From NCBI GenBank assembly GCA_017521195.1, contig JAFXGP010000014.1, positions 1 to 43,228 of the forward strand: DNA of 43,228 nt, in the 5' to 3' direction. The notes below the pieces were generated by a model, which ran no database searches, was not told where the DNA came from, and worked only from the letters and a program-made list of their open reading frames with translations. The position numbers and the translations under genes are program-made. Each line of letters begins with the position of its first letter. Position 1 is the stretch's first letter. This document shows, piece after piece, positions 5,282 to 38,053 of this stretch. The stretch comes from Lachnospiraceae bacterium. GTDB lineage: Bacteria; Bacillota; Clostridia; Lachnospirales; Lachnospiraceae.

Positions 5282-5313
5282 AACAGCCGCAAAGTTTACC
5301 TCTTGCGGCTGTT
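5282..5313 (-). terminator. Rho-independent terminator overlapping the end of the OLD-family gene
   Basis: A perfect 11-bp stem (AACAGCCGCAA at 5282-5292 with its complement at 5303-5313, 10-nt loop) is followed on the minus strand by a T-rich tail. The upstream arm on that strand is the coding sequence for the last residues (NSRK), and the stop codon lies in the loop. Confidence 0.8.
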
Positions 5314-7146
5314 AAAATAAACAATAGAATCAATGGTATCTAAAATATCTTTGAAATCTTCCCTTGGAGCAATCTCTAAATACTGTTTTAGAAGCTCGTT
5401 TTCACGGTCGCGGTATCTTCCATAGAAAATGTCATATAAATTATGACCTCTCATATAAATCTTAAATTCTTCAAAATGTTCTTTAATATCTTCTATGGTT
5501 TCTACCTGTTTCCCAATCTTTTCCTCAAATATTCTTCCACTTTTAATCTTATAAAGATATTTCTTCCATTTTGAAAAAAGTATTCTCCAAAAATGTTCTT
5601 CACTCTTTACAATCCTCAGTTCCGTCATAACCTTGGGATTCAAAAAATAATTTTCAAAAGAGTAATATTTTAATATAAGGACATTCTCTCTGCGAACCCT
5701 TGGCAATTTATCTATATCCTGCAGATTGCGTTCGCTGTAATAGCGGCACAACTGCCCTGCTAATTCTTCTCTGTCTTTTCCGTCTCCGTCACGAATCATC
5801 AGGAATTGATCTCTTAGATATAGTTGATTCATATATTTCAAATTGGCATAGGTTTTAATGTTGGTACAGCTATTGGTGGTAATAATGGAAATTCTGGATA
5901 ACTCCCCATTTTCATTATGGATATCCGAATAGTATTTTTCCAACAATAACGGTAATCGGTTTTTATCCTGCTTCCCTTCTACAATAAACACAAAGTCTAC
6001 ATTCAAAAAATCATTAGCACTATATCCCAAGTCATTTAAAATATCATCAATATCCGCATTCTGCCTTGCTGCAGAATGTCCTTCTTTGTCCAAAACTACC
6101 TGACACACCTGCCCTCTGGTAAAATTAGACACCATATTTGGAGAATGGGTTGTAAATACAACCTGATTTTTTTTCGATAGCTTATATAATATCTTACTGG
6201 CAGATTTTTGTAAAGACGGATGTAAGAACAATTCCGGATATTCTACAATAATAATACTTGGAATTTTTTGCTCTTCTTCAATGTAAGTTTCCAAAAGAGA
6301 CAGCATGTAAATACTTCTCATACCATTCCCCAACTGTTCCACAGGACTGCCATGGCCTGTTTCCTTATGATTGGCCTCTACTTTTACGGAAAGCATCTGT
6401 TCCCAATTACAATTCATCTTATAGGAAATTTCTTCTACTCCACCATTCTTTTTGTAATTATAATTTACCTTTTTAGAAAGTTCTTCCAAATCCATCTGGT
6501 ACATTTTATACTCCAAAAGGAGCGCTGTTTCTCTAAGTGTCATTGCCTCCGGTGTTTTTTGATTAATTAATCCAATGCACTGAAAACACTGATTACACTT
6601 TCTGGACGAATCAAACATACAAATATTGGAACGCAAATGCGACAATTCCTCTGCCTGTCTTAACAAAAAGAAATCTTCTTGAAAGGATTTCAATTTTCGC
6701 GCCGTATCTATGAAATGTACTTTAGGTAATACCTGTAAAATATAATCGTTGTTTTTGCTTTTCCCGTCATCATAACGTATGGTTCCGTTTTGATTAATTG
6801 AACAGGTAAAGGTCAATTTCCCATTTTGAAAACAAGGAAGTTTCTTTTGAAAATCCCGAATCCACGATTCATATTTTTTATAATTACTGACTCTTCCGTA
6901 ATTATGAAACAGACGCAAATCTTCCTCTGTAATCTGCAATGTCATGGTAATTTCAATATTCTGTCTGCGCTCATTAAAATCCGTTTCTCTCACTTTATAA
7001 TTACCCGTTACAGCACGGATTGCATCCAACACAACGGTTTTACCTGTGTTATTTTTCCCCACCAGAATCAGACAGTTCTCTACATCCCTAATTTCCAGTT
7101 CCCTTATAGATTTAAAGTTTTTAATATTAAGGAATTTAATCTGCAT
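5296..7146 (-). CDS. OLD-family AAA ATPase with C-terminal TOPRIM nuclease-like domain
   Basis: 616 aa. An ABC-type ATPase head is split around an insertion: Walker A GKNNTGKT (30-37), signature-like QLGNGMRS (271-278), Walker B SIIIVEYPELFLHP (297-310) and the H-loop TTHSPNMVS. It is followed by a TOPRIM domain with FIVEGKQDK (E390) and RDGDGKDRE (D453, D455), the acidic residues expected for metal-dependent DNA cleavage. Such proteins (OLD, GajA) act on DNA in repair or phage defence. Unusual is a CNQCFQC triplet (C184, C187, C190) in the ATPase insertion, suggesting a bound metal. No UvrD-like helicase or reverse transcriptase lies next to it, so it is not a Gabija or retron operon as seen here. 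The ATG at 7146 has an AGAAGGTG site. Confidence 0.85.
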   Translation of the reverse strand: MQIKFLNIKNFKSIRELEIRDVENCLILVGKNNTGKTVVLDAIRAVTGNYKVRETDFNERRQNIEITMTLQITEEDLRLFHNYGRVSNYKKYESWIRDFQKKLPCFQNGKLTFTCSINQNGTIRYDDGKSKNNDYILQVLPKVHFIDTARKLKSFQEDFFLLRQAEELSHLRSNICMFDSSRKCNQCFQCIGLINQKTPEAMTLRETALLLEYKMYQMDLEELSKKVNYNYKKNGGVEEISYKMNCNWEQMLSVKVEANHKETGHGSPVEQLGNGMRSIYMLSLLETYIEEEQKIPSIIIVEYPELFLHPSLQKSASKILYKLSKKNQVVFTTHSPNMVSNFTRGQVCQVVLDKEGHSAARQNADIDDILNDLGYSANDFLNVDFVFIVEGKQDKNRLPLLLEKYYSDIHNENGELSRISIITTNSCTNIKTYANLKYMNQLYLRDQFLMIRDGDGKDREELAGQLCRYYSERNLQDIDKLPRVRRENVLILKYYSFENYFLNPKVMTELRIVKSEEHFWRILFSKWKKYLYKIKSGRIFEEKIGKQVETIEDIKEHFEEFKIYMRGHNLYDIFYGRYRDRENELLKQYLEIAPREDFKDILDTIDSIVYFNSRKR

Positions 7147-20288: not shown

Positions 20289-20771
20289 CTATCCTTTTTC
20301 ACTTCGTATTCTCTTTAATATCTCCACACCTCTTTGAATATAGTCCTGTTCCATAATTCCCTTTGATTCCTTTATTCTTTCAACCACCTGCATAGGGTCC
20401 AGCGAGTGGTAGGGAAAATATAGTTTTCTTAATTCCTCCGGCTTTATTATTCGATATACTGACTTACTGCTTACTTCATGGGTATACGCCCAATAACGAT
20501 AAATATATCCCATCCAATATAATTCTTCACCTGCATATTTTATTTTTCCATATTTGCTTTTTCCATATTCATTTTCAATCTCTTCAATCGCATCAGATAC
20601 AGAAAATGCTTCAAATAGGAAACCCTCTTTATCCATTCTCTCTGCCGTTTGAGAATACATGAATCTTCTCAAAAAAATAGGAGAACTACATTGTGTTTTT
20701 ATCAATGATTGTTCAAATAATTCTCCTTGATATTTACTCAACCTTAATCCACTTTCATCAAACTCTCTCAT
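20289..20771 (-). CDS. Partner protein of the HTH-DUF3990 gene (putative toxin-antitoxin component)
   Basis: 160 aa, soluble. Notable stretches are SSPIFLRRFMYSQTAERMDKEGF, EEIENEYGKSKYGKIKYAGEELYWMGYIYRYWAYTHEVSSKSVYRIIKPEELRKLYFPYHSLDP and the end MEQDYIQRGVEILKRIR. I do not know a catalytic motif here. Its ATG overlaps the stop of the upstream gene as ATGA (20768-20771), so the two are translationally coupled, as is usual for toxin-antitoxin pairs. Which of the two is the antitoxin cannot be told from sequence. Confidence 0.7.
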   Translation of the reverse strand: MREFDESGLRLSKYQGELFEQSLIKTQCSSPIFLRRFMYSQTAERMDKEGFLFEAFSVSDAIEEIENEYGKSKYGKIKYAGEELYWMGYIYRYWAYTHEVSSKSVYRIIKPEELRKLYFPYHSLDPMQVVERIKESKGIMEQDYIQRGVEILKRIRSEKG

Positions 20772-21622
20772 TGCAAAATTTCCTCAATATATTTTCCTTT
20801 TCCACGATATTGTCTTCTGGCAATTTTTACTTTATCACGGTTTATTTCTACAAATTCTTTTCGCGATTTTAAATAATATTCTTTTTCTTCCTGCGCTAAA
20901 AAACAATGTTCAAGCACCCTTATCTGATTAATAGCTTTCTGCGATACAAAAACATACTGATTCCCCAAATTGGTTGCAGACAAACAATGCTGACATTGAA
21001 CATCTGTAATCTCACCTTCAATAAAACTATCAATAATTTCAAACATTCTATTATCTGCAATGGGCGCAATAAAATAATCAATATCTTTATTTTTTCCAAT
21101 TAATTCAGCTATTATTTCTGAATTTGCAAATTCTTCCAAACGATCTCTATAATATGCAATCGTCAGCATCCATTCTCGATCCACATTATATTTTTTATAA
21201 TTTAATCCTTCTCTATTAAAATCCAACATATACAAAGATGAATTTGAAAATGCTGAAACAAACATTGCAGATTGTTCTAAACTTTCGCCACAATAAAATC
21301 CCTGTCCGAAATCATTGTTTTTTCTCGACTTTTCCACACTAATTGGTCCTTCAATTATGTTTTTTGCTCCATGGAATAATAAAACATGTTGTTTTTCAGA
21401 TAATTCTTCTTTATATAACTGTTCTTTAATCTTATTTAGACGAATTCCTGATCGAAATGCAAAATTATAAAATACCTCTAAATTTAATTCACTTATTTTT
21501 CTCTTACCCGTAAGCCAATTATTCAAAGTTATTCTTGAGACACCTATTTCCTTCGCCATTTCTTCTGTTGTCAATTCAAGAAGTTCACGTACAATTTCTA
21601 TATCTTGCGCAAGTTGATACAA
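20768..21622 (-). CDS. XRE-type HTH fused to DUF3990 (ADP-ribosyltransferase-like) domain
   Basis: 284 aa. Residues 6-70 form a helix-turn-helix (ELTTEEMAKEIGVSRITLNNWLTGKRKISELNLE). Residues 78-235 match DUF3990: LLFHGAKNIIEGPISVEKSR and NDFGQGFYCGESLEQSAMF, where H84 and Y110 recall the H and Y of H-Y-E ADP-ribosyltransferases. These domains occur in toxin-antitoxin-like loci of Firmicutes, usually with the HTH separate. The start is a TTG at 21622, 7 nt after AGAGGGG; the first internal ATG would destroy the HTH. A pair of near-identical operators (21640-21709) lies directly upstream, suggesting autorepression by the HTH. Confidence 0.82.
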   Translation of the reverse strand: MYQLAQDIEIVRELLELTTEEMAKEIGVSRITLNNWLTGKRKISELNLEVFYNFAFRSGIRLNKIKEQLYKEELSEKQHVLLFHGAKNIIEGPISVEKSRKNNDFGQGFYCGESLEQSAMFVSAFSNSSLYMLDFNREGLNYKKYNVDREWMLTIAYYRDRLEEFANSEIIAELIGKNKDIDYFIAPIADNRMFEIIDSFIEGEITDVQCQHCLSATNLGNQYVFVSQKAINQIRVLEHCFLAQEEKEYYLKSRKEFVEINRDKVKIARRQYRGKGKYIEEILQ

Positions 21623-24665: not shown

Positions 24666-25583
24666 CTACTTTCCATTCCTTCTTTCTTCATAGCTTTCAT
24701 GAAAAATATTTTTTTGGATAATGTAAATATCCTGTATATCATCTTTTCGAATCGCCAAGTAATCTCCGTTTCGCCCTAAGAAATATTCTCCGTTATTATA
24801 CGGATTAAATACTTTTGTTCTACATTCTAAAGGAATTGCATAGATGCCTTCAGATGTTTTAGGATAGCATAAATGTGCAAGATCATCTAATGAAACAAAT
24901 TCGCCATCTTCATATCTTTGAATTTCCGGCATATAACTAAGCATCTGCTCAAATATATCCAGATATTCTTCTGATGCTTCATATGTTTTTTCAAACTTTT
25001 CCCTGTCAATATGATATATTTCGCCACGCTGTCCTATCATAATATAAATATCCTCAGAAGCTTCCAATAATATCCGCGATTGATTCTCTATAGATTTTAA
25101 ATAAAACTTTTCTCCTGTTTGCATAAAGTCCGTTGTCTTCACATAGGACCAGGGAATTTTTTTCTTCGTATAGTCTGGCATTTTTAAAATCAAATCTTTG
25201 TTCTTCTCTGCAAATTCTACCGCATAGATGCAACCGCAATTTGCAAAATAGTTTTCTGTGATTTTTTTCAAAAGTCCTTCTATCGTATTCTCTTCGAATT
25301 CTAAGAGCATTGTTTGTAAGAATACTCCATCCAGCACAACCTGTGCTTTATGTGCATTTCCCTGTACTATGGCATAATCATGCACCAGATAATCCATAAA
25401 TTCCAACGCTTGAATTTCTTTTATATTACTGTAAAAAGAAAGGCTAATATCTTTATTCTGTTCTGCCCAAAACAGATTACAAACACGAATCTCTTTTTCC
25501 ATGCCATCTGTTTTGTCAAATTTTTCTACCGGCATTTCCTCAATCTTTATGCCATACATTCTATTTTTTTCATATATTATCAT
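24666..25583 (-). CDS. Unrecognised protein, last gene of the cyclase-TIR-GGDEF operon
   Basis: 305 aa, soluble, acidic, with no membrane helix or signal peptide. The N-terminal half alternates strands and helices (AEQNKDISLSFYSNIKEIQALEFMDYLVHDYAIVQGNAHKAQVV); the centre reads TEDIYIMIGQRGEIYHIDREKF-like beta stretches; the C terminus has EYFLGRNGDYLAIRKDDIQDIYIIQKNIF. I do not recognise the family. The ATG at 25583 lies inside the cyclase gene (14-bp overlap) with AAAGGAATT 7 nt before it, so it is translationally coupled to the cyclase. Its place suggests an effector, regulator or cyclic-nucleotide-responsive partner; this is inference. Confidence 0.75.
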   Translation of the reverse strand: MIIYEKNRMYGIKIEEMPVEKFDKTDGMEKEIRVCNLFWAEQNKDISLSFYSNIKEIQALEFMDYLVHDYAIVQGNAHKAQVVLDGVFLQTMLLEFEENTIEGLLKKITENYFANCGCIYAVEFAEKNKDLILKMPDYTKKKIPWSYVKTTDFMQTGEKFYLKSIENQSRILLEASEDIYIMIGQRGEIYHIDREKFEKTYEASEEYLDIFEQMLSYMPEIQRYEDGEFVSLDDLAHLCYPKTSEGIYAIPLECRTKVFNPYNNGEYFLGRNGDYLAIRKDDIQDIYIIQKNIFHESYEERRNGK

Positions 25584-27081
25584 AGGCAATTCCTTTTTCT
25601 AAATTTAGTCGTTTAATGAATTCTTCGAACTCCTTATTTAAATGTGTAAATCGCAATCGGACTTCCTTTCCGTTTATTTGAATCACCTTAGCATATACAC
25701 CGGAAAATTGCGTTTCATCTCCACATTTCGTCCGCACTTCCACATCAGAATAAACAGGGAGTTCCCATATCAATTCCTCTGCAAGTTCCACAATACCGCT
25801 GTGTGTATTTATAGATTTCAATACAGTCGCTACAGGAATCGTGCTAAGCATTTTATCCTTAATCAGATATAAATCTAAACCGATATTTTCAGCCAACAGA
25901 TATAAAATCTCTTCTGCTTTTTCTAACGAACACTGATACTCTCCACCGATACCACTAACCTCATAAATCTGCAATGGATGTCTGATTCCTTTTGCTTCTA
26001 CTGACAAACGATTTTCTATTGTTACGTCACATGAGAGTTGATTTAAAATATTTTTTGAAACCAGAACCTGTCCTCCTATGCTACAACTTTCAATCCTTGA
26101 ACATTCATTCACGACTCTTCCAATGACATTATATCGCATCATTTTCTCTGTACCGACATTTCCCACAAAGGCTTCTCCGCAGTGAACACCAACACCCATT
26201 TCCAGTTCAAATATCCCTCTCTCCTTACCGAAAACATTGATTTCCTTCATTGCATTCTGCATAGAAATTGCTGCTGCAACTGCTGACTCCACATACTGTT
26301 CATTTGGCATAGGTGCACCGAAAATTGCTAAAATAGCATCGCCCATAAATTCAATTACTGTCCCGTTATATCCGGCAATCACTTCTACCATTGCTCCAAA
26401 AAAACGGTTTAATACCAACATCAATTCGTCCGGTTTTAATTCTTCTGATTTGGCTGAGAAACCACGTAAATCACACATCAGAACAGCAACCTGACTTCTA
26501 TCTCCTATAGGAAATTCTTCCGAATCCGCCAAAATAACTTCCAACACATCATCAGAAAAGTATTTTCCGAATACTCTGCACAAAAATTTATTTCTGTTCT
26601 CTAATTGTACATTTAAACTTTGGATTTTTTTTGCTACTGCCAATTCACTTGCTTGTTTCTGAAAAATCCGTTCATAGCTTCTTGTCATCTCATACTGTTC
26701 TGCTGCCTGGCGAATTCTTAAGATACCATTTTGATTGACCGGCTTTTCCAGCACAATCATCGCTCCTTGGGAATAATAATCCTCTTTGTCTGTATCCTCT
26801 CCATTATGTACCATAAAAAACAGCGGAACCCCTGCCAACTTAGGCTGACTTTTCAACATGTCAAGTATGGTTTTGTCTGTTTCCACCATATGGTAGCTGA
26901 TAAGAATTAGAGACGGATAACTAAGAACATCTTCTCTTAAAAGACGCTCTTCTATTATTTTCTGAAGTGCAGCCGTCGAAACAATACTCATAGAACAAAT
27001 ACCACCTAATGCATTGATTTTTCGCTGTATACCGATTAAATCTTTTTTATTATCATCAATTACCCATATTATTTTTTCCAT
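25570..27081 (-). CDS. Pseudo-receiver fused to class III nucleotidyl cyclase
   Basis: About 503 aa (numbering here from an upstream in-frame GTG at 27096). Residues 7-130 are a receiver-like domain: VIDDN and EKPV with K118 are kept, but the phosphoacceptor position is serine (LILISYHM, S67). A coiled-coil linker (140-172) leads to a class III cyclase: metal Asp209 (MCDLRGFS) and Asp253 (EFMGDAI), catalytic N330 and R334 (VVNECSRIES). The two purine-selecting positions are E249 and N323, not the Lys and Asp/Thr of adenylate cyclases. Residues 380-508 form a helical-beta tail, possibly PilZ-like. It overlaps both neighbours. Product may be cGMP, a cyclic pyrimidine nucleotide or cAMP. Confidence 0.85.
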   Translation of the reverse strand: MEKIIWVIDDNKKDLIGIQRKINALGGICSMSIVSTAALQKIIEERLLREDVLSYPSLILISYHMVETDKTILDMLKSQPKLAGVPLFFMVHNGEDTDKEDYYSQGAMIVLEKPVNQNGILRIRQAAEQYEMTRSYERIFQKQASELAVAKKIQSLNVQLENRNKFLCRVFGKYFSDDVLEVILADSEEFPIGDRSQVAVLMCDLRGFSAKSEELKPDELMLVLNRFFGAMVEVIAGYNGTVIEFMGDAILAIFGAPMPNEQYVESAVAAAISMQNAMKEINVFGKERGIFELEMGVGVHCGEAFVGNVGTEKMMRYNVIGRVVNECSRIESCSIGGQVLVSKNILNQLSCDVTIENRLSVEAKGIRHPLQIYEVSGIGGEYQCSLEKAEEILYLLAENIGLDLYLIKDKMLSTIPVATVLKSINTHSGIVELAEELIWELPVYSDVEVRTKCGDETQFSGVYAKVIQINGKEVRLRFTHLNKEFEEFIKRLNLEKGIAYDNI

Positions 27082-27965
27082 ACATTTGAACGCCACTTAC
27101 CTTCAATATCTTGAGTTAATCGTCTTTCTGTTTTTGTCACACGTGTTTGTACAAAATCCCTATCTACCGGAGATATTGTTACATCATCTCTAAAATAATA
27201 CTCTATGGCCTGCTTAGATACACCCGTTCCGCGCGCAATCGTTATTGCCGGTGCCGGACCATTATCCCTGATAAAATTTTTTATCTTCATAAAATCATCA
27301 TAATATTCTATATTACAAACAGGACATTTGTATGTACCGGCACTCACACACTCTAATTTCATACCACACTTGTCGCAAAAAACAGGTATTTTATTAATGC
27401 GGAATGCATTGGTTCTTTTATCTAACCTACGTCTTTCCATTTCCTCTTGAACATTTATTTTTTCTATAATACCACTATTTCCTGTGTTATCGTTGGACGG
27501 ATGTACTTTTGTACTTTCCAGTGTTGTCTCACTTATGATACTTTTTTTCGGAATACTCTCTTTAAATTTCGTATGTAGTATTTCCAAACTGTCTTTTTGT
27601 ATTTTTCCATCCGATTGCACTTGAACATTCACCATCTGAATATTATTCAGATAAAAAGTGTACATATCATTTAATGGTATATCATCAATCCTCACGGGAA
27701 TAATATTTTTTCTTGCATTAACAGCACTATCCAATTCTTTTTCTACCCAAATAGAATTTTGTGATGCTTCAGACACAATAAACAAAAAAACACTACAATT
27801 TTTTAATGCCTTTGGAATCTCTTTTGCATAATTAGATCCCGCCGGAATCATTTCAGGTGCTTTCCAATACGAAATGCCGCAGTCTTTTAAAACGTTCACT
27901 ATTTGCTCTACAATTTTAATATCTTTTGAGCAATGACTGACAAACCAATAGCCTCTCTCATCCAT
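27069..27965 (-). CDS. TIR domain protein with zinc ribbon and helix-turn-helix
   Basis: 298 aa. Residues 5-135 form a TIR domain: YWFVSHCSKD, YWKAPEMIPAGSNYAKEIPKALKNCSVFLFIVSEASQNSIWVEKELDSAV, with E77 at the position of the NADase glutamate of active TIRs. A flexible linker (140-190) leads to a zinc ribbon (C197, C200, C214, C217) and a YvyF/MerR-like helix-turn-helix (DDFMKIKNFIRDNGPAPAITIARGTGVSKQAIEYYFRD). It has no cyclic-nucleotide-binding fold that I can see. It lies 34 bp after the GGDEF gene and overlaps the cyclase gene by 13 bp. It is probably an NAD+-cleaving effector or a nucleotide-signal enzyme. Confidence 0.85.
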   Translation of the reverse strand: MDERGYWFVSHCSKDIKIVEQIVNVLKDCGISYWKAPEMIPAGSNYAKEIPKALKNCSVFLFIVSEASQNSIWVEKELDSAVNARKNIIPVRIDDIPLNDMYTFYLNNIQMVNVQVQSDGKIQKDSLEILHTKFKESIPKKSIISETTLESTKVHPSNDNTGNSGIIEKINVQEEMERRRLDKRTNAFRINKIPVFCDKCGMKLECVSAGTYKCPVCNIEYYDDFMKIKNFIRDNGPAPAITIARGTGVSKQAIEYYFRDDVTISPVDRDFVQTRVTKTERRLTQDIEGKWRSNVWKK

Positions 27966-27999
27966 TAGTCCTATATTCCTTTCATTTTTAACAATATGT

Positions 28000-29775
28000 T
28001 TATCCTATTACCGTATTTCTTCCTGTTTTCTTCGCTTCATATAAATTCTCGTCTGCAGCTTTTATATTCTCTTCCAATGTCAGCTCATCTTCTATCTGTT
28101 TAATACCAAATGACATTGTAATCGGGATATTATTATTCTCTACTACACATGTGGATTGTTCAATCGTAATTCGAATCTTCTCTGCCAATTCTCTTGTCTG
28201 TCGCAAATCATATCCCGGTAATAAAACAATCATTTCTTCTCCACCCCAACGGAATACTTCACCTGCATCATGGACACACTCCCGGATAATATTTGAAACA
28301 TGCTGTAATACCTTATCTCCTGCATTATGTCCATAAGTGTCATTTACACGTTTAAAGTAATCAATATCTCCTATTATAATGCTTTTTTCTTGTTCTTTTT
28401 TCGGCAATAATATGTAGTTTTCATAATATTCATAAAATCCACGACGATTCTGTAATCCGGTAAGGGCATCCATTCTGCTTTGAACACGTAATAAGTGCGC
28501 TTCCAAAAGTTTTCCGCTATATACAGCAGCCAATGCGAGACGATTTTTATCCTGCTCGCAAAAACTACTTTCACCAAAACTTCCTATCTTGTTAATTGCC
28601 TGATATGCCCCTATCACGTCACCACAACTATTGGTTACAGGCATGCATAAAATTGACTTTGTTATATAACCGGTTTCTTTATCTACCTGCGGATTAAATC
28701 TTGTATCCTGATAAGGATTATTAATTAAAATTGTCTCATTATTTTCAATAGATGAACCAACAATTCCCTGTCCCTTTGGTACAACAATACGCCCGGTCCC
28801 GGATGCTCCCATTGTCCAGTAAGAATTATTTTTTACATCACGGTACCAAAAAGAGGTTCTGTCTGCATTTACTAAAGTACGCCCCAACTCTGTCAACAGC
28901 AGAACTGATTCAGAAAAATCTTTCTCTATTGTTAATTCATTCATATAATAAAATATTTTTTCCAATAATTCTTCTGCTTTAGAATTGTATAACCTTGTAT
29001 CTTTTCCCTGAAGCAAATCTTTTAAATATTCTAATGATTCCCGCTGGTGTTGTGGATCGTTCGTTTCAATTAAAACACTGGAATCTTTGAAATATTTATA
29101 ATAATATTCCATGAATTCATCCCAATCTATTTTTCCCTTCCCCAGCGGAAGATGAACATCTGCAGTATGGTCATTATCATTAATATGAATGTGTTTTACA
29201 TATGGATAAAGACTTTTTCCCCATTCATCATGCAATCCACCATATACATTTACATGCGCCCAATCCAGACATACTCCATAATTAGGATATTCTTGCAATT
29301 GCTTTGAAATCTTTTCTAACACCTCCGGCGTTTTATCAAACATATTTTCCATGTAAATATCAATGTTGGGATATTGTTTCAATAACTTTGCCAAATAGCT
29401 GACTAAGGTATCTATCAATTGCTGCTTATACATTTCTCCCGGAATATCCGGATTATAATTGGTATGAAAAATTACACCTTTTACTCCCAACCGGCTTGCA
29501 ATTTCCATGCTTTGTGCCATTCGGAATTCAGAAATTTCACGGATTTTTGCATCACTACTATTAATCGCCAAATCAAAAAATGCCCCATGCATGGTACTAT
29601 TCTTTGGAATACCAAATTTTTTGTACATGGTTATCACATTTTCGATTTCTTTTTCATCATCTAAAAGCTTTGCATTAAAGAAATCATTTATCTCAAATGA
29701 AACATGATATTCTTTTGCAATCTGTAAATATTCCTCTAATTTTTCTGCCTTTGATACAATTAGAACATGTTTCAT
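28000..29775 (-). CDS. Xylose-isomerase-like TIM barrel fused to GAF and GGDEF domains
   Basis: 591 aa. Residues 1-255 match AP_endonuc_2-type TIM barrels with metal-site residues E143 (YMENMF), D171 and H174 (LDWAHVN), H197 (HIHINDND) and E237 (LIETND). Residues 280-425 form a GAF domain (VVPKGQGIVGSSIENNETILINNPYQDTRFN). Residues 432-591 form a diguanylate cyclase: DALTGLQNRRGF, DIDYFKRVNDTYGHNAGDKVL and GGEEM at the GGDEF site (511-515), so probably active. The RxxD inhibitory site is not seen. Barrels of this kind usually isomerise sugars; fused to GGDEF it may act as a ligand sensor. First gene of the operon, with its own promoter. Confidence 0.9.
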   Translation of the reverse strand: MKHVLIVSKAEKLEEYLQIAKEYHVSFEINDFFNAKLLDDEKEIENVITMYKKFGIPKNSTMHGAFFDLAINSSDAKIREISEFRMAQSMEIASRLGVKGVIFHTNYNPDIPGEMYKQQLIDTLVSYLAKLLKQYPNIDIYMENMFDKTPEVLEKISKQLQEYPNYGVCLDWAHVNVYGGLHDEWGKSLYPYVKHIHINDNDHTADVHLPLGKGKIDWDEFMEYYYKYFKDSSVLIETNDPQHQRESLEYLKDLLQGKDTRLYNSKAEELLEKIFYYMNELTIEKDFSESVLLLTELGRTLVNADRTSFWYRDVKNNSYWTMGASGTGRIVVPKGQGIVGSSIENNETILINNPYQDTRFNPQVDKETGYITKSILCMPVTNSCGDVIGAYQAINKIGSFGESSFCEQDKNRLALAAVYSGKLLEAHLLRVQSRMDALTGLQNRRGFYEYYENYILLPKKEQEKSIIIGDIDYFKRVNDTYGHNAGDKVLQHVSNIIRECVHDAGEVFRWGGEEMIVLLPGYDLRQTRELAEKIRITIEQSTCVVENNNIPITMSFGIKQIEDELTLEENIKAADENLYEAKKTGRNTVIG

Positions 29776-29827: not shown

Positions 29828-29865
29828 AAGTTCCATGACTAATCATCGGTCTTGGTACAAAAAAA

Positions 29866-29891
29866 GCGACTCAGCAAACTTGCTGAATCGC
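29866..29891 (-). terminator. Terminator upstream of the cyclase operon
   Basis: GCGA-TCAGCAA pairs with TTGCTGA-TCGC around one mismatch (29866-29877 with 29880-29891). The minus-strand product ends in a run of seven T. It insulates the cyclase operon from the gene ending at 30112. Confidence 0.78.
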
Positions 29892-30111
29892 CTTTGATTT
29901 TATTTGGATTATTTATTGTGTTCGGGATTATTCGAACTCGTTTCTTGCAAGAATATTTGGGGGTATTCTATTGGGATATTCCTACTTTTCGTTGCACTAT
30001 TTGCTGATTTTGCAAGAGTTATTTTGAGTCGCATTATTTTTGTACTCAGGGTGTACTCATACTATTATTGCATTTATGTTACAATCCATTGCCATAGTTA
30101 TACCAAACTCG
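29892..30111. other. 220-bp non-coding stretch at the island edge
   Basis: No convincing frame on either strand. A TTCGAAT box near 29930 looks like a T-arm loop on the minus strand but its flanks do not pair, so it is not a tRNA. This is where an island or element end might lie, since gene content changes here, but I see no direct repeat matching the 38-kb side. Confidence 0.4.
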
Positions 30112-33378: not shown

Positions 33379-34317
33379 TTAAAGTTTTTCGTTTATTGCT
33401 TTTTCAATATCTTGTGCCATCAACATATATTCGGCTACATCATCTATTTTTTGTATTCCAAATCCCGTAAGCACTTTTATCTCAGCAATAGTCATTCCTT
33501 TTTCTAATAATTTTTGTACGCCTGTAAGTGCTGTAGCCATAGCGCTAAATCCTTCAACATTAAAGTTTTCTTTTGCTCGTTTTCTTAATTCGTCCATTAT
33601 GTAAGGAGAAGATATCTTCTTTCCATTCGAATTAGTAAATAGCCATTTCCTATCCTTCTTGCAATTCATTTCACAATACCTTTTTACCATATTTCCTAAT
33701 TCTTCTTCTAAAAACAGTTTAAAGTGAGTATCTTCAGCATATTCTAAATTAAATGATAATGTTTCCTCATCAAACTGTTCCAATCTCAAATCCAAAAGAA
33801 CTTCACTTTTAAATCCATATTCAAGCATAAGTCTATACCTTACAATTTGACCATATTGACAGTGCCTTTCATAATTCAAAGTTTTAATAACTTCTTCCAT
33901 CGCTTCTATCTCGTCGGATTTCATAGGTACAGTTATTCTTCTACTACCCAACTTTTCATTCATAGAATTAGCTACATCATTTATAACTTCTTTCCTATGA
34001 CATCCCGCTTCAAGCTCATCACATATGATCCCCTGCTTCTTTATGTAGTTTACGTAAAATTTATCAATTGCAATCAAGTATCTATTAATGGCTTGCATAG
34101 TTTTTGTCTTCTTACTTCCTTCAACATAGGTCCTACAAGCTTCTACTATACTATGCATACTAATATATTCCGCAAACAATTTTTTCAGAGGATACTTTGA
34201 TAATCCCTCTTCCTCACAATATTTAAAGAAGCTGTCATAACAAGCAGCATCCCCTTTTCTATTAGCATCCATATTTTTCTTGTAATTATTTAATGCTCTT
34301 TCTAATTCGTTTGCCAT
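33379..34317 (-). CDS. Tyrosine-recombinase-fold protein lacking the usual catalytic residues
   Basis: 312 aa. An N-terminal SAM-like helical domain (ALNNYKKNMDANRK..YDSFFKYCEEEGL) is followed by a catalytic-domain-like region: RYRLMLEYGFKSEVLLDLRLEQFDEETLSFNLEY aligns with integrase box I, but the expected arginine is Lys (GFK). SPYIMDELRKRAKENFNVEGFSAMATALTGVQKLLEKGMTIAEIKVLTGFG aligns with box II, but lacks the HxxR and GH residues. It is probably inactive as a recombinase and may act as a DNA-binding regulator. A 7-bp inverted repeat (34345-34369) lies just upstream. Confidence 0.6.
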   Translation of the reverse strand: MANELERALNNYKKNMDANRKGDAACYDSFFKYCEEEGLSKYPLKKLFAEYISMHSIVEACRTYVEGSKKTKTMQAINRYLIAIDKFYVNYIKKQGIICDELEAGCHRKEVINDVANSMNEKLGSRRITVPMKSDEIEAMEEVIKTLNYERHCQYGQIVRYRLMLEYGFKSEVLLDLRLEQFDEETLSFNLEYAEDTHFKLFLEEELGNMVKRYCEMNCKKDRKWLFTNSNGKKISSPYIMDELRKRAKENFNVEGFSAMATALTGVQKLLEKGMTIAEIKVLTGFGIQKIDDVAEYMLMAQDIEKAINEKL

Positions 34318-35173: not shown

Positions 35174-37903
35174 TTATCCTACCAACTTGTCCAGCATTTC
35201 TACGATCTTTTCTCTTTCACCGCTGCCATTTGTTTTAAATCTCAGCAATGGAATTTCATACAGCTCCATTATATGATTTTTTAAGAAATCTCTTGAAGCC
35301 TGTACAGTATTCTCTTTATGGTATTCATATCCGTCAACTTCAATCGCCAGCACAGGCTTTTTACCAATTCTGTTATAAATCAGAAAATCCAAATGTGTTG
35401 CCGTATTCATTGCATACTGGCATTCCTGTTCGTTTAATAATTCTGGATTTTTAATTAACATATTCAACGGAAAATGGCAAACAACATCCAAGCTTGAATA
35501 CTTGTTATCGGCGATTATTTCCTCGATCAAAGAATACATCAGATTCTCTGAATCATATTCTGATATCTTTTTATGCTTCTGCAAATATGCTATTCTTTCC
35601 TCGGTATACTGCTTGTAAAGATAATCAAAAATAGAATATATTTTACTCTCTGCCACCTCAAAATTGTTATATTGAATGTAGTCTATCAAATCTGTTATAT
35701 TATGCTCTTTTGATTGCTCATTTCCAGTTACAACCAGCATCAATTTCTTCTTTGCTCTTGATACAGCAACATTGATTAAATACGAATCATCTGCAAAATC
35801 AGATATCTCATCATCCACAGTAGATATAATAATATTCTCTTTTTCCTTGCCTTGGAACTTATGCACTGTAGCCGCATCAATATCTGTTATCTCTTTGCTT
35901 AATGCTTCTACCTGATTTTTGTACGGTGCAATAATTCCGGTTTCTTCCGGATTGCAAACATATTTTGGTATAATCTCACTTTTAATAACATCTATCTGGC
36001 GTTGACTATAATGATTACGCTCGTGATTTCCTGCAACTGTTTTTACCACAGACAACACATCTTCCTCGCCTTTATCCGTTGTCATTATAATCAATTCACC
36101 ACGATAAAATTTCTGATTGCAGAAATTAATTATTTTAGGATGGCATCGATAATGCTCTCGCAATAATGTTTGTGTTACATTTGGCATGACATCCAAAATG
36201 GATTGGAGAAAGCTCTTCGTATACTGATATCCTTCATTCACATTAAATGTATCAAATATAGCTTTTGCTTTGGTCTTTACATCATCTATAACAACATTAG
36301 GAAGCTGCTTTGTATCCCCTACAATAACAACATTCCTTGCACAAGAAAGTGCCAATGCACCGGTTGCAATATCTACCTGTGATGCCTCATCCATTATAAG
36401 ATAATCGTACACTACATCTGAATTCAGGCTGTTTCTTGATGAAAATGTTGTACTTAAAATAACAGGATATTCATCAAGAACATCATATGGTTCTTTCCAC
36501 AAATTATCTTCGCTAAATATCTTTCTACTGCTCTTACCTTCATATTTTCTTGCCAGTTTGTCTTTCAGTACAACCATTGACTGATTGCATAAATCATCAA
36601 GCAAATTCTTATTAACATTATTCAAATACTTTTCAATATCTGCAATTTCTGCAAACAATTCCGCCTGCTTTGCACGATAATACATAGCCTGAAAAGTTGT
36701 AATTATCTTCGAAATATCCTGTTTATAAAAATTCCAATCTATTACTCCATACTTAAAAAAGCCCTTTATCTTAAACCAAAATCCTATTGCCTTTTTCTCT
36801 TCCGAAATCAACTTGCACTCCTGCCACAATACCATCCAATGTTTTGATGACAGTTTTTTCTTAAATTTTATATTGTCTGTATCAACATCTGATTCTTCGA
36901 CATATTGATTGAAATATTCCTGTTCTGTAACCAACTGTGAAAGTTCCTGCCTTAAACACGCAAGTTTCTCCTGCTTATCAAAAACAGTTTTTAACTGACT
37001 GGATTGCTCTGCTATTCTCTTCTGCAAATCATAAGAATTTTCATTTATTTTCCAAAGCGAAAAGTCTGGATAATTTATATCCTGATGCTCAACAAATATT
37101 TTCTTGTTCTTAGAACTTCCTAATGTTGCAGCAACAAAACCCAAATTGTACTTGAGCGATGATAATTTTTCATATACATTTTCTGTTGCTGAATTATTGT
37201 TGGATACTATCTGTACCGTTTTTCCTTGCATCAATATATTGGCAATTATATTTAATATCGTCTGCGTCTTACCTGTTCCGGGAGGTCCCTGTATAACACT
37301 AATCTGATTCTCCATGGCATTTTTCACAGCCTTGTACTGACTGTTATTGCATCCAAATGGAAAAATAGGAATATATTCGCGCGCTATTCTTTTTCCTTGC
37401 AATGATGATGGATTCAAATACTTTGCTAAAGCCACATCACTACCCACAAAAGAAATCTTATCAAACCTCTTAGACAATAGTTTTTCACCGGTCCCTTCAT
37501 TCCTAATATTACTCAAACCTGCAATTTGCTTTATATATTCAAATACATTTGATGACTGGCTTTGATTAAGACAAGACTCTATAATATGCAAGTCGCTTCG
37601 ACGATAATCTCTTTCACTACCATCGCCAAAACAAATATGCCAATAGGACTCATATGTACTTCTAAATACATATATTGCTTTAATATCAAAGAACTCCCGT
37701 CCATCTCTGCTAATACGATACATATTAGGATTTAAAACATCTGGTTCAGTTAATTTTTCCACATTCAAATATGCATAAGAGTATGTTTTTCCAGTATTGA
37801 ATTTTACATCCCATTTTTGGGTATTTCTATTGTACACACATGACATTATTTCGGATGTCTTTATTTCACCTTTAATAATGACCATATAATATCTTGTATT
37901 CAT
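35174..37903 (-). CDS. SF1 (DNA2/NAM7-like) helicase with C-terminal PD-(D/E)XK-like nuclease domain
   Basis: 909 aa. Walker A GPPGTGKT (206-213), Walker B DYLIMDEASQVD, motif III GDTKQLPNV, motif IV-VI elements REHYRCHP, ATVHKFQGKEKENIIISTV and NVAVSRAKKKLML. A roughly 270-residue insertion lies between motifs I and II. The C-terminal domain (about 780-909) has PVLAIEVDGYEYH, SRDFLKNHIMELYEIPLLRFKT, a DUF2726/Vsr-like restriction-endonuclease pattern. It probably unwinds and cuts nucleic acid; such fusions are common in defence islands. The ATG at 37903 follows AGAGAGG by 7 nt; an extension to 37957 is unlikely. Confidence 0.88.
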   Translation of the reverse strand: MNTRYYMVIIKGEIKTSEIMSCVYNRNTQKWDVKFNTGKTYSYAYLNVEKLTEPDVLNPNMYRISRDGREFFDIKAIYVFRSTYESYWHICFGDGSERDYRRSDLHIIESCLNQSQSSNVFEYIKQIAGLSNIRNEGTGEKLLSKRFDKISFVGSDVALAKYLNPSSLQGKRIAREYIPIFPFGCNNSQYKAVKNAMENQISVIQGPPGTGKTQTILNIIANILMQGKTVQIVSNNNSATENVYEKLSSLKYNLGFVAATLGSSKNKKIFVEHQDINYPDFSLWKINENSYDLQKRIAEQSSQLKTVFDKQEKLACLRQELSQLVTEQEYFNQYVEESDVDTDNIKFKKKLSSKHWMVLWQECKLISEEKKAIGFWFKIKGFFKYGVIDWNFYKQDISKIITTFQAMYYRAKQAELFAEIADIEKYLNNVNKNLLDDLCNQSMVVLKDKLARKYEGKSSRKIFSEDNLWKEPYDVLDEYPVILSTTFSSRNSLNSDVVYDYLIMDEASQVDIATGALALSCARNVVIVGDTKQLPNVVIDDVKTKAKAIFDTFNVNEGYQYTKSFLQSILDVMPNVTQTLLREHYRCHPKIINFCNQKFYRGELIIMTTDKGEEDVLSVVKTVAGNHERNHYSQRQIDVIKSEIIPKYVCNPEETGIIAPYKNQVEALSKEITDIDAATVHKFQGKEKENIIISTVDDEISDFADDSYLINVAVSRAKKKLMLVVTGNEQSKEHNITDLIDYIQYNNFEVAESKIYSIFDYLYKQYTEERIAYLQKHKKISEYDSENLMYSLIEEIIADNKYSSLDVVCHFPLNMLIKNPELLNEQECQYAMNTATHLDFLIYNRIGKKPVLAIEVDGYEYHKENTVQASRDFLKNHIMELYEIPLLRFKTNGSGEREKIVEMLDKLVG

Positions 37904-38053
37904 CCATTTACCTCTCTTTATATTAATCAAGATATCACTTTGCAAGCAATTATTCAAGATACTCTCGCAAGATATTGCGATTTTTGCTCAGGCTTATATA
38001 TGGTTTCTCGATAATTGATAATTGTTTTGTTTTGTTAATTTTCTCCACAAAAA

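Follow-up and report, generated by a model that had tools for sequence, protein, structure and literature searches.

A conserved TIR-cyclase-ORF4 operon of Lachnospiraceae as a possible modular guanine-nucleotide signalling unit

A four-gene operon, which combines a diguanylate cyclase-type protein (DGC), a TIR protein, a class III nucleotide cyclase and a 305-aa protein termed ORF4 (ORF, open reading frame), is located at positions 24666-29775 of a 43,228-nt stretch of DNA from a Lachnospiraceae bacterium (contig JAFXGP010000014.1 of GCA_017521195.1), the whole of which is referred to here as the window. The gene set is a conserved unit, since the order TIR-cyclase-ORF4 recurs in 49 of 58 loci, which is more than chance would give. 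With moderate confidence, it is explained here as a modular guanine-nucleotide/TIR signalling (second-messenger) operon. We observed the order of the genes, their conservation, motifs that are intact, a group of Glu-type cyclases that stands apart, and upstream modules that interchange; from these we infer the products, the direction of the signal, the role of ORF4, the cleavage of NAD+ and the target of the output.

In the proposed scheme, an input protein would sense a signal, this protein being of the GAF-GGDEF type in the window and a hybrid histidine kinase in six relatives, two of which carry a homologous GAF domain, and it would either make cyclic di-GMP (c-di-GMP) or hand on phosphate. 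The receiver-cyclase would then make a cyclic nucleotide, most likely cyclic GMP (cGMP), and ORF4, which is fused to the cyclase in eight relatives, would serve as its receptor or as a coupling factor. The TIR protein would be the output, acting as an NAD+-cleaving or NAD+-sensing enzyme, and its YvyF-like tail of a zinc ribbon and a helix-turn-helix (HTH) could make contact with DNA or with the machinery of transcription. Removal of the signal would fall to the TIM barrel, which resembles a metal-dependent phosphodiesterase, or in a few relatives to an RNase Z-like metallo-β-lactamase (MBL) protein. The features of the operon are as follows.

28000-29775, minus strand: gene 1, DGC, TIM barrel-GAF-GGDEF, 591 aa
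about 28981-29775, minus strand: EndoIV/CbiR-like TIM barrel (Pfam AP_endonuc_2, 9.7e-27)
about 28576-28896, minus strand: GAF domain (Pfam GAF, 4.5e-8)
about 28015-28476, minus strand: GGDEF domain (Pfam GGDEF, 1e-41)
27069-27965, minus strand: gene 2, TIR-zinc ribbon-HTH, 298 aa
about 27621-27944, minus strand: TIR domain with NADase-type Glu77 (Pfam TIR_2, 6.3e-21)
about 27183-27377, minus strand: zinc ribbon and HTH, YvyF-like (TIGR03826)
25570-27081, minus strand: gene 3, receiver-class III cyclase, 503 aa from ATG
about 26719-27066, minus strand: receiver domain (Response_reg match below cut-off in the window)
about 25957-26496, minus strand: class III cyclase domain (Pfam Guanylate_cyc, 6e-26)
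within gene 3, minus strand: C-terminal domain of ~120 aa, no family assigned
24666-25583, minus strand: gene 4, ORF4, 305 aa from ATG
within gene 4, minus strand: N-terminal region, no family assigned, then two possibly repeated PGDYG-like stretches at about 24966-25190 and 24669-24854
29866-29891, minus strand: terminator-like hairpin with a T-run at 29859-29865 (fold of 29840-29910, -22.2 kcal/mol)

The ORF check agrees with the preliminary description of this DNA in placing all four genes on one strand (minus), with a 34-bp gap between genes 1 and 2 followed by overlaps of 13 and 14 bp, as counted from the ORF ends. The terminator-like hairpin at 29859-29891, which a pattern scan of the window did not list, sets the operon apart from the gene upstream. 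The single promoter claimed earlier did not hold up: 25 promoter-like sites were found and 27.1 expected, none of them in the gap directly upstream of gene 1 on the minus strand, and a sigma-70 promoter for the operon was rejected because the site count is not above chance. The Rfam scan of the window gave no riboswitch match, and the same scan over nine loci gave a single c-di-GMP-I riboswitch (L125 1250-1325, Kineothrix sp. MSJ-39), which lies far upstream of the operon and from which it follows that this strain probably uses c-di-GMP.

The survey covered 397 genomes of the same family as the window, six genomes of the same genus (72-89% complete) and 84,980 species, each represented by one genome, which were scanned with the TIR alignment and yielded 58 loci; numbers with L and G label loci and genomes, respectively. 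The scan patterns were built from nine family members, and distant relatives may escape them. Eight of the 58 loci (L123, L125, L138, L141, L148, L153, L164 and L166) match, in the order given, eight operon loci of the family genomes (L109, L111, L112, L107, L106, L108, L110 and L056), so that the two sets are not independent. By name, 45 of the 58 loci belong to Lachnospiraceae or its genera and the remainder mostly to other Clostridia-type taxa, the outliers being one metagenome-assembled genome (MAG) named 'Bacteroidales' (L141) and a Rufibacter locus whose TIR is distant.

Besides the window's own, full-length relatives of the cyclase (42-49% identity, E 3.7e-112 or better) were found in 8 of the 397 family genomes, and in all eight the cyclase has the TIR gene directly before it and an ORF4 homologue behind it, which in one case is fused to it. 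The cyclase is the next gene after TIR in 52 of the 58 loci, and a small ORF intervenes in two loci (L143, L144) in addition to the 49 with the complete order. The cyclase is not adjacent to TIR at six loci (L130, L159 and L173-L176): the L159 locus stops with TIR, other genes occupy the place in L130, and L174-L176 represent distant TIR proteins. A GGDEF gene stands immediately upstream in 34 of the 58 loci and a TIM-barrel gene within two genes in 31, both being present in 29; fusions join the cyclase to ORF4 in eight loci and TIM to GGDEF in six. The other neighbours vary, the commonest neighbour group being present in 13 of 54 loci. These data suggest that TIR-cyclase-ORF4 forms the core and that inputs and signal-removing enzymes are variable, GGDEF and the TIM barrel being accessory to the core. 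The co-occurrence across genomes that the preliminary description had proposed to look for is thereby borne out, and neither the scattering of the genes nor the inactivation of the enzymes, which it had named as observations that would speak against a common system, was seen at the level of gene order and residues.

Moreover, the pairwise distances of the five proteins correlate with one another (rho 0.56-0.83; none of 500 permutations as high; L119, L124, L159 and L173-L175 left out), which would fit joint inheritance, although common descent alone would give the same.

The upstream modules of the operon are exchangeable. In gene 1, the TIM barrel also matches the NCBIfam models CbiR (1.5e-12) and nfo (5.4e-12), in both cases below the cut-off of the model. 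Residue counts here and below exclude the window and cover 54 TIR, 52 cyclase, 35 GGDEF and 31 TIM rows; the TIR count is 54 of 57, with L173-L175 left out, as they are from the TIR alignment A5, and L176 gives no row. Among nine residues that we take to be EndoIV-type metal ligands, eight are kept in 31/31 TIM rows, and the ninth is D in 23 and N in 8. The GGDEF motif holds in 34/35 rows, and all 34 show the GGEEF-type motif of diguanylate cyclases, with F in the last place; the odd row is the kinase of L165, a protein devoid of a GGDEF domain. TIM and GGDEF are fused in the window and in six of the 29 loci having both, and the other 23 carry them on separate genes.

A hybrid kinase takes the place of the upstream GGDEF at six loci. 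It lies directly upstream in L128, L130, L136 and L138; the L138 kinase, whose Pfam domains were read on its L112 copy, shares 65-77% identity with the others. L165 has a GAF-kinase and a second receiver protein (Pfam), and so has L171, at 75% identity and with one further ORF before TIR; the GAF domains of both match the GAF of the DGC (5.9e-33 and 1.7e-33, respectively). No TIM gene was seen at L165 and L171, where an MBL gene overlaps the end of ORF4 by 1 bp. MBL genes were also found 15 bp beyond ORF4 in L172 and after one intervening gene in L170, and the nearest PDB relative of the L171 MBL protein is RNase Z (5.5e-10). The intervening gene of L170 (5206-6291, minus strand) is itself a GAF-GGDEF gene of the operon type, which follows ORF4 but runs on the other strand. 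At other loci, the upstream genes are unrelated ones, namely SNF2 helicase, GH31, ion channel and EamA (Pfam). As a separate observation, two of six loci of a sister group of Glu-type cyclases (L115 7570-9776 and L116 8287-10412) have such a cyclase beside an EndoIV-like TIM protein with no TIR, and the N-terminal region of these two cyclases looks PAS-like by eye.

With regard to the TIR protein, Glu77, which we take to be the catalytic Glu of TIR NADases, is kept in 54/54 other rows, and each of the four zinc-ribbon Cys residues is kept in 53/54. The YvyF model TIGR03826 is matched by 54 of 55 TIR rows (best 5.7e-20), the window copy scoring 22.5 bits, far under the 124-bit cut-off. Like YvyF, the tail joins a zinc ribbon to an HTH; unlike it, the tail is fused to TIR, whereas YvyF-like matches in the relatives fall in short frames of mostly 80-200 aa. 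Because YvyF belongs to a flagellar-region family, the TIR-YvyF protein and c-di-GMP might act on flagellar expression, and the operon would then serve the control of motility. FlhA was indeed found in 9/9 operon genomes and in 211/397 family genomes (p 0.003); however, it is nearly as frequent in the other genomes that have class III cyclase matches (48 of 58; p 0.21), so that the excess lacks specificity, and a flagellar association of the operon was rejected on this control. The sole motility-type gene among the Pfam-scanned neighbours is a chemotaxis-receptor-like ORF (L158), and a role in motility is regarded as unlikely.

The class III cyclase gives the best indication of the messenger involved. 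Both metal Asp residues, the Asn, the Arg and Glu244 are each kept in 51/52 other cyclase rows, the gap being L119, which is cut by the contig end; the metal-binding role of the Asp pair and the transition-state role of Asn and Arg are assumed here. The closest PDB matches are two entries under the name adenylate cyclase, 6fht (2.8e-50) and 2w01 (9.4e-48). According to PMC5995499, 2W01 is the guanylate cyclase Cya2, whose E488K variant has adenylate cyclase activity; 6fht is taken here to be the phytochrome chimera of that paper carrying the exchange. Opposite Glu244 of the window, 2w01 has Glu and 6fht has Lys. In this base-selecting column, where Lys is the adenine-selecting residue, Glu is found in 43/43 operon cyclases (alignment A4, 42 of 51 rows plus the window) and in 6/6 of the sister group, and Lys in 15/15 other family class III cyclases (L091-L105, a subset of many family matches), 13 of which have the matching Asp. 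In the tree, a branch with support 86/96 divides the operon cyclases from the rest, and they form a separate Glu-type group. As the column holds Glu and the nearest relative of solved structure is Cya2, a guanylyl cyclase, cGMP is the best guess for the product. The same two lines point to a guanylyl type and not to the pyrimidine type of Pycsar. Cya2, from Synechocystis, has a CHASE2 membrane sensor, and the cyclase described here has a receiver domain and stands in a TIR operon.

The preliminary description had spoken of a pseudo-receiver in front of the cyclase, which fits the window copy, where Ser stands at the Asp site and the match is below cut-off; as a family, the domain is a receiver, since Response_reg recognises 32 of 43 rows (best 9.3e-9) and the Asp is kept in 50/52 other rows. 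A PilZ domain at the C-terminal end of the cyclase, which would have linked the protein to c-di-GMP, was rejected, as only 1 of 43 rows matched (E 0.03). Apart from the operon, non-operon class III cyclases of three genomes (G169:C51, G256:C31 and G244:C24) lie ~4 kb or less from cyclic-nucleotide-monophosphate (cNMP)-binding proteins of ~395-400 aa; these pairs are on other contigs than the operon and possibly form a separate cAMP-type circuit.

ORF4 had been called an unrecognised protein. This stands insofar as no Pfam family exceeds its cut-off, and it requires correction insofar as the relatives are weakly PGDYG-like and the domain recurs fused to DHH phosphoesterases. PGDYG (PF14083) is weakly matched by 26 of 51 ORF4 rows (best 3e-4; alignment A3, 50 of 54 rows plus the window), with no match in the window copy; when seven rows were scanned one by one, it hit two of them, in each case under the cut-off. 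The resemblance between the two stretches of ORF4 is confined to 18 columns (hhalign probability 80, E 1.4e-5), and a PDB profile search with alignment A1 found no relative up to E 10. ORF4 matches were obtained in 22 of 98 relatives' genomes: the window's own, the cyclase fusion of G020, a short match inside an AAT enzyme of G034, which is probably due to chance, and 19 with longer proteins of ~490-580 aa. Seven long ORF4-like proteins, six from these 19 genomes and one from G169, were all of the DHH-DHHA1 type (Pfam). In addition, behind one cyclase-ORF4 fusion (L131 11280-13465) comes another ORF4-like gene, which encodes 428 aa.

At 7 of the 19 DHH-ORF4-like loci, a TIR protein of ~930-1040 aa (split in one) is encoded within two genes of the DHH gene, downstream in L060, L064 and L067, upstream in L057, L059 and L062, and one gene apart in L065. 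L061 has two TIR-type genes nearby on the other strand, and a further pair of a DHH-DHHA1-ORF4-like and a long TIR protein was met in the TIR scan (L176). Two of the long TIR proteins match Pfam TIR, and the rest match one of those over the TIR part (3.2e-39 or better); their remainder looks by eye like a membrane segment followed by a repeat (propeller-like) region. ORF4-like domains therefore meet TIR in two separate gene settings, the core operon and the DHH/long-TIR loci. We tentatively raise, at rather low confidence, the wider proposal that the ORF4-type (PGDYG-like) protein is an adaptor or receptor which wires TIR proteins to exchangeable nucleotide enzymes, for signalling or immunity, in two branches. 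The partner would be a guanylyl cyclase together with a c-di-GMP synthase or hybrid kinase in the first branch, and a DHH phosphoesterase beside a TIR-membrane-repeat protein in the second, and combined cGMP/c-di-GMP, or their breakdown, would set TIR activity.

Several points weigh against a signalling operon of the kind favoured here. The window DGC has the motif GGEEM, its receiver has Ser in place of Asp, and the receiver acidic pair is degenerate in most rows. The second base-selecting position of the cyclase differs from row to row (R, Q, K, S and others), which makes a base other than guanine possible, though Cya2 (2w01) itself has Ala there. The activities of all members are predicted from sequence, although by their residues the enzymes of the operon look intact. 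TIR proteins with an NADase-type Glu are known mostly from immunity. The patchy presence of the operon (9/397 family genomes, nine genera, window included) suits an accessory or defence unit equally, and ORF4 was found in none of the six same-genus genomes at the completeness given above. The distances of the cyclase do not correlate with those of RpoB (rho 0.07, from only 28 pairs of 8 genomes, the window's RpoB not being found), which makes horizontal transfer or repeated loss of the operon possible. The neighbouring MscS gene was tried as a marker of the empty site, and its same-genus matches are 27-29% identical and probably not orthologous.

The missing receiver Asp and the GGEEM motif, together with the many loci that lack GGDEF and TIM beside the core, could also mean that the genes are merely co-transcribed neighbours without joint function or that the window copy is decaying. 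This is very unlikely, given that the order is kept though the other neighbours differ, that fusions occur at two places, that the distances are correlated and that the active sites are intact.

The patchy distribution would also fit an anti-phage role, in which infection would activate a cyclase, the cyclic nucleotide would act via ORF4 on TIR, NAD+ would be depleted and growth would stop, much as in Pycsar or CBASS with another receptor. The catalytic-type Glu of TIR and the adjoining cyclase are in line with it, as are the CRISPR-associated Cat1, the nearest solved TIR by profile (1.9e-8), and the matches of the PADLOC models PycC and ThsB to the cyclase and TIR domains (ten proteins were run through PADLOC). 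Neighbours at L109, L110, L111 and L140 include helicases, a PIN-domain gene and a further TIR gene, and OLD-like and Mko-like genes lie elsewhere in the window. On the other hand, a cyclic-nucleotide-binding domain (CNBD) is absent from the operon in 9/9 genomes, the PF00027 matches in 7 of 9 all lying outside it, and SAVED and STING families are absent from the Pfam lists of the four window proteins, 51 ORF4 and 43 cyclase rows (the lists do not extend to the TIR relatives). Other scanned neighbours are of housekeeping type, such as carbamoyl-phosphate synthase, class II tRNA ligase, AsnA, MATE, Spo0A-type and GH31 genes, the neighbours having been read with Pfam at selected loci. The TIR alignment found no viral contig and ORF4 no plasmid; two weak ORF4 matches fall in unannotated 'Bacteriophage sp.' contigs. 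Furthermore, the inputs are GAF, histidine-kinase and receiver modules, which are typical of environmental sensing. Taken together, an anti-phage function, the chief rival of the signalling explanation, is possible but doubtful. The choice between defence and signalling that the preliminary description had left standing leans to signalling, and the neighbouring defence genes it had asked about are a mixed picture.

The presence of two nucleotide cyclases and the absence of a CNBD from the operon, both noted earlier, were confirmed (Pfam, PF00027 search). The operon resembles Pycsar in having a class III-type cyclase, matched by PADLOC PycC, beside a TIR with a catalytic-type Glu. It differs in that the operon has no CNBD and the TIR has a YvyF-like tail; its cyclase is nearest to Cya2, keeps the Glu and is preceded by a receiver, and it has GGDEF, TIM barrel and ORF4 in addition. 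Membership in Pycsar was rejected on account of the missing CNBD and the guanylyl-type residue in the cyclase. According to PMC11224242, Pycsar cyclases use the residues Y50/D94/R97 and F100/R142/Q144, which differ as well by description. Thoeris and CRISPR Cat1 share similarity of the TIR domain with the operon, whose proteins are without a ThsA-, CARF- or SLOG-type domain (Pfam). CBASS TIR-STING shares with the operon a TIR effector with a possible c-di-GMP link; unlike it, the four window proteins include no STING or CD-NTase family (Pfam), and a GGDEF enzyme is present instead. The PADLOC SAVED_TIR match covers the TIR part only.

Elsewhere in the window, an OLD-family ATPase-like protein is encoded at 5296-7146 (PADLOC Old, 1.3e-39), ~17 kb from the operon, and an AAA_11/AAA_12 helicase with DUF2726 at 35174-37957 (PADLOC MkoA, 1.1e-43), a relative of which lies near the operon of G256 (L109 1796-4792) alongside a TIR-DUF6273 gene. 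An HTH-DUF3990 protein at 20289-21622 and an overlapping 160-aa gene form a possible toxin-antitoxin-like pair, and a 312-aa protein at 33379-34317 looks by eye like a degenerate tyrosine recombinase, with no Pfam match up to E 0.01.

As had been noted earlier, no described system with this gene set was found in the open-access literature, and subscription papers and preprints lay mostly outside the search, so a description may exist; PMC7159879 and PMC12657218 deal with other systems. The operon may thus be a kind of nucleotide second-messenger operon with TIR that is apparently undescribed there. Since three carriers are not labelled MAG (Kineothrix sp. MSJ-39 and Lachnospiraceae bacteria MC2017 and MA2020), testing in culture is probably feasible. 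If the explanation is true, a major gut family would gain a conserved operon that unites two guanine-nucleotide cyclases with a TIR protein, cGMP synthesis would be predicted in Bacillota, and there would be a first handle on ORF4-type proteins. It would also bear on whether bacterial TIR enzymes act in regulation outside immunity.

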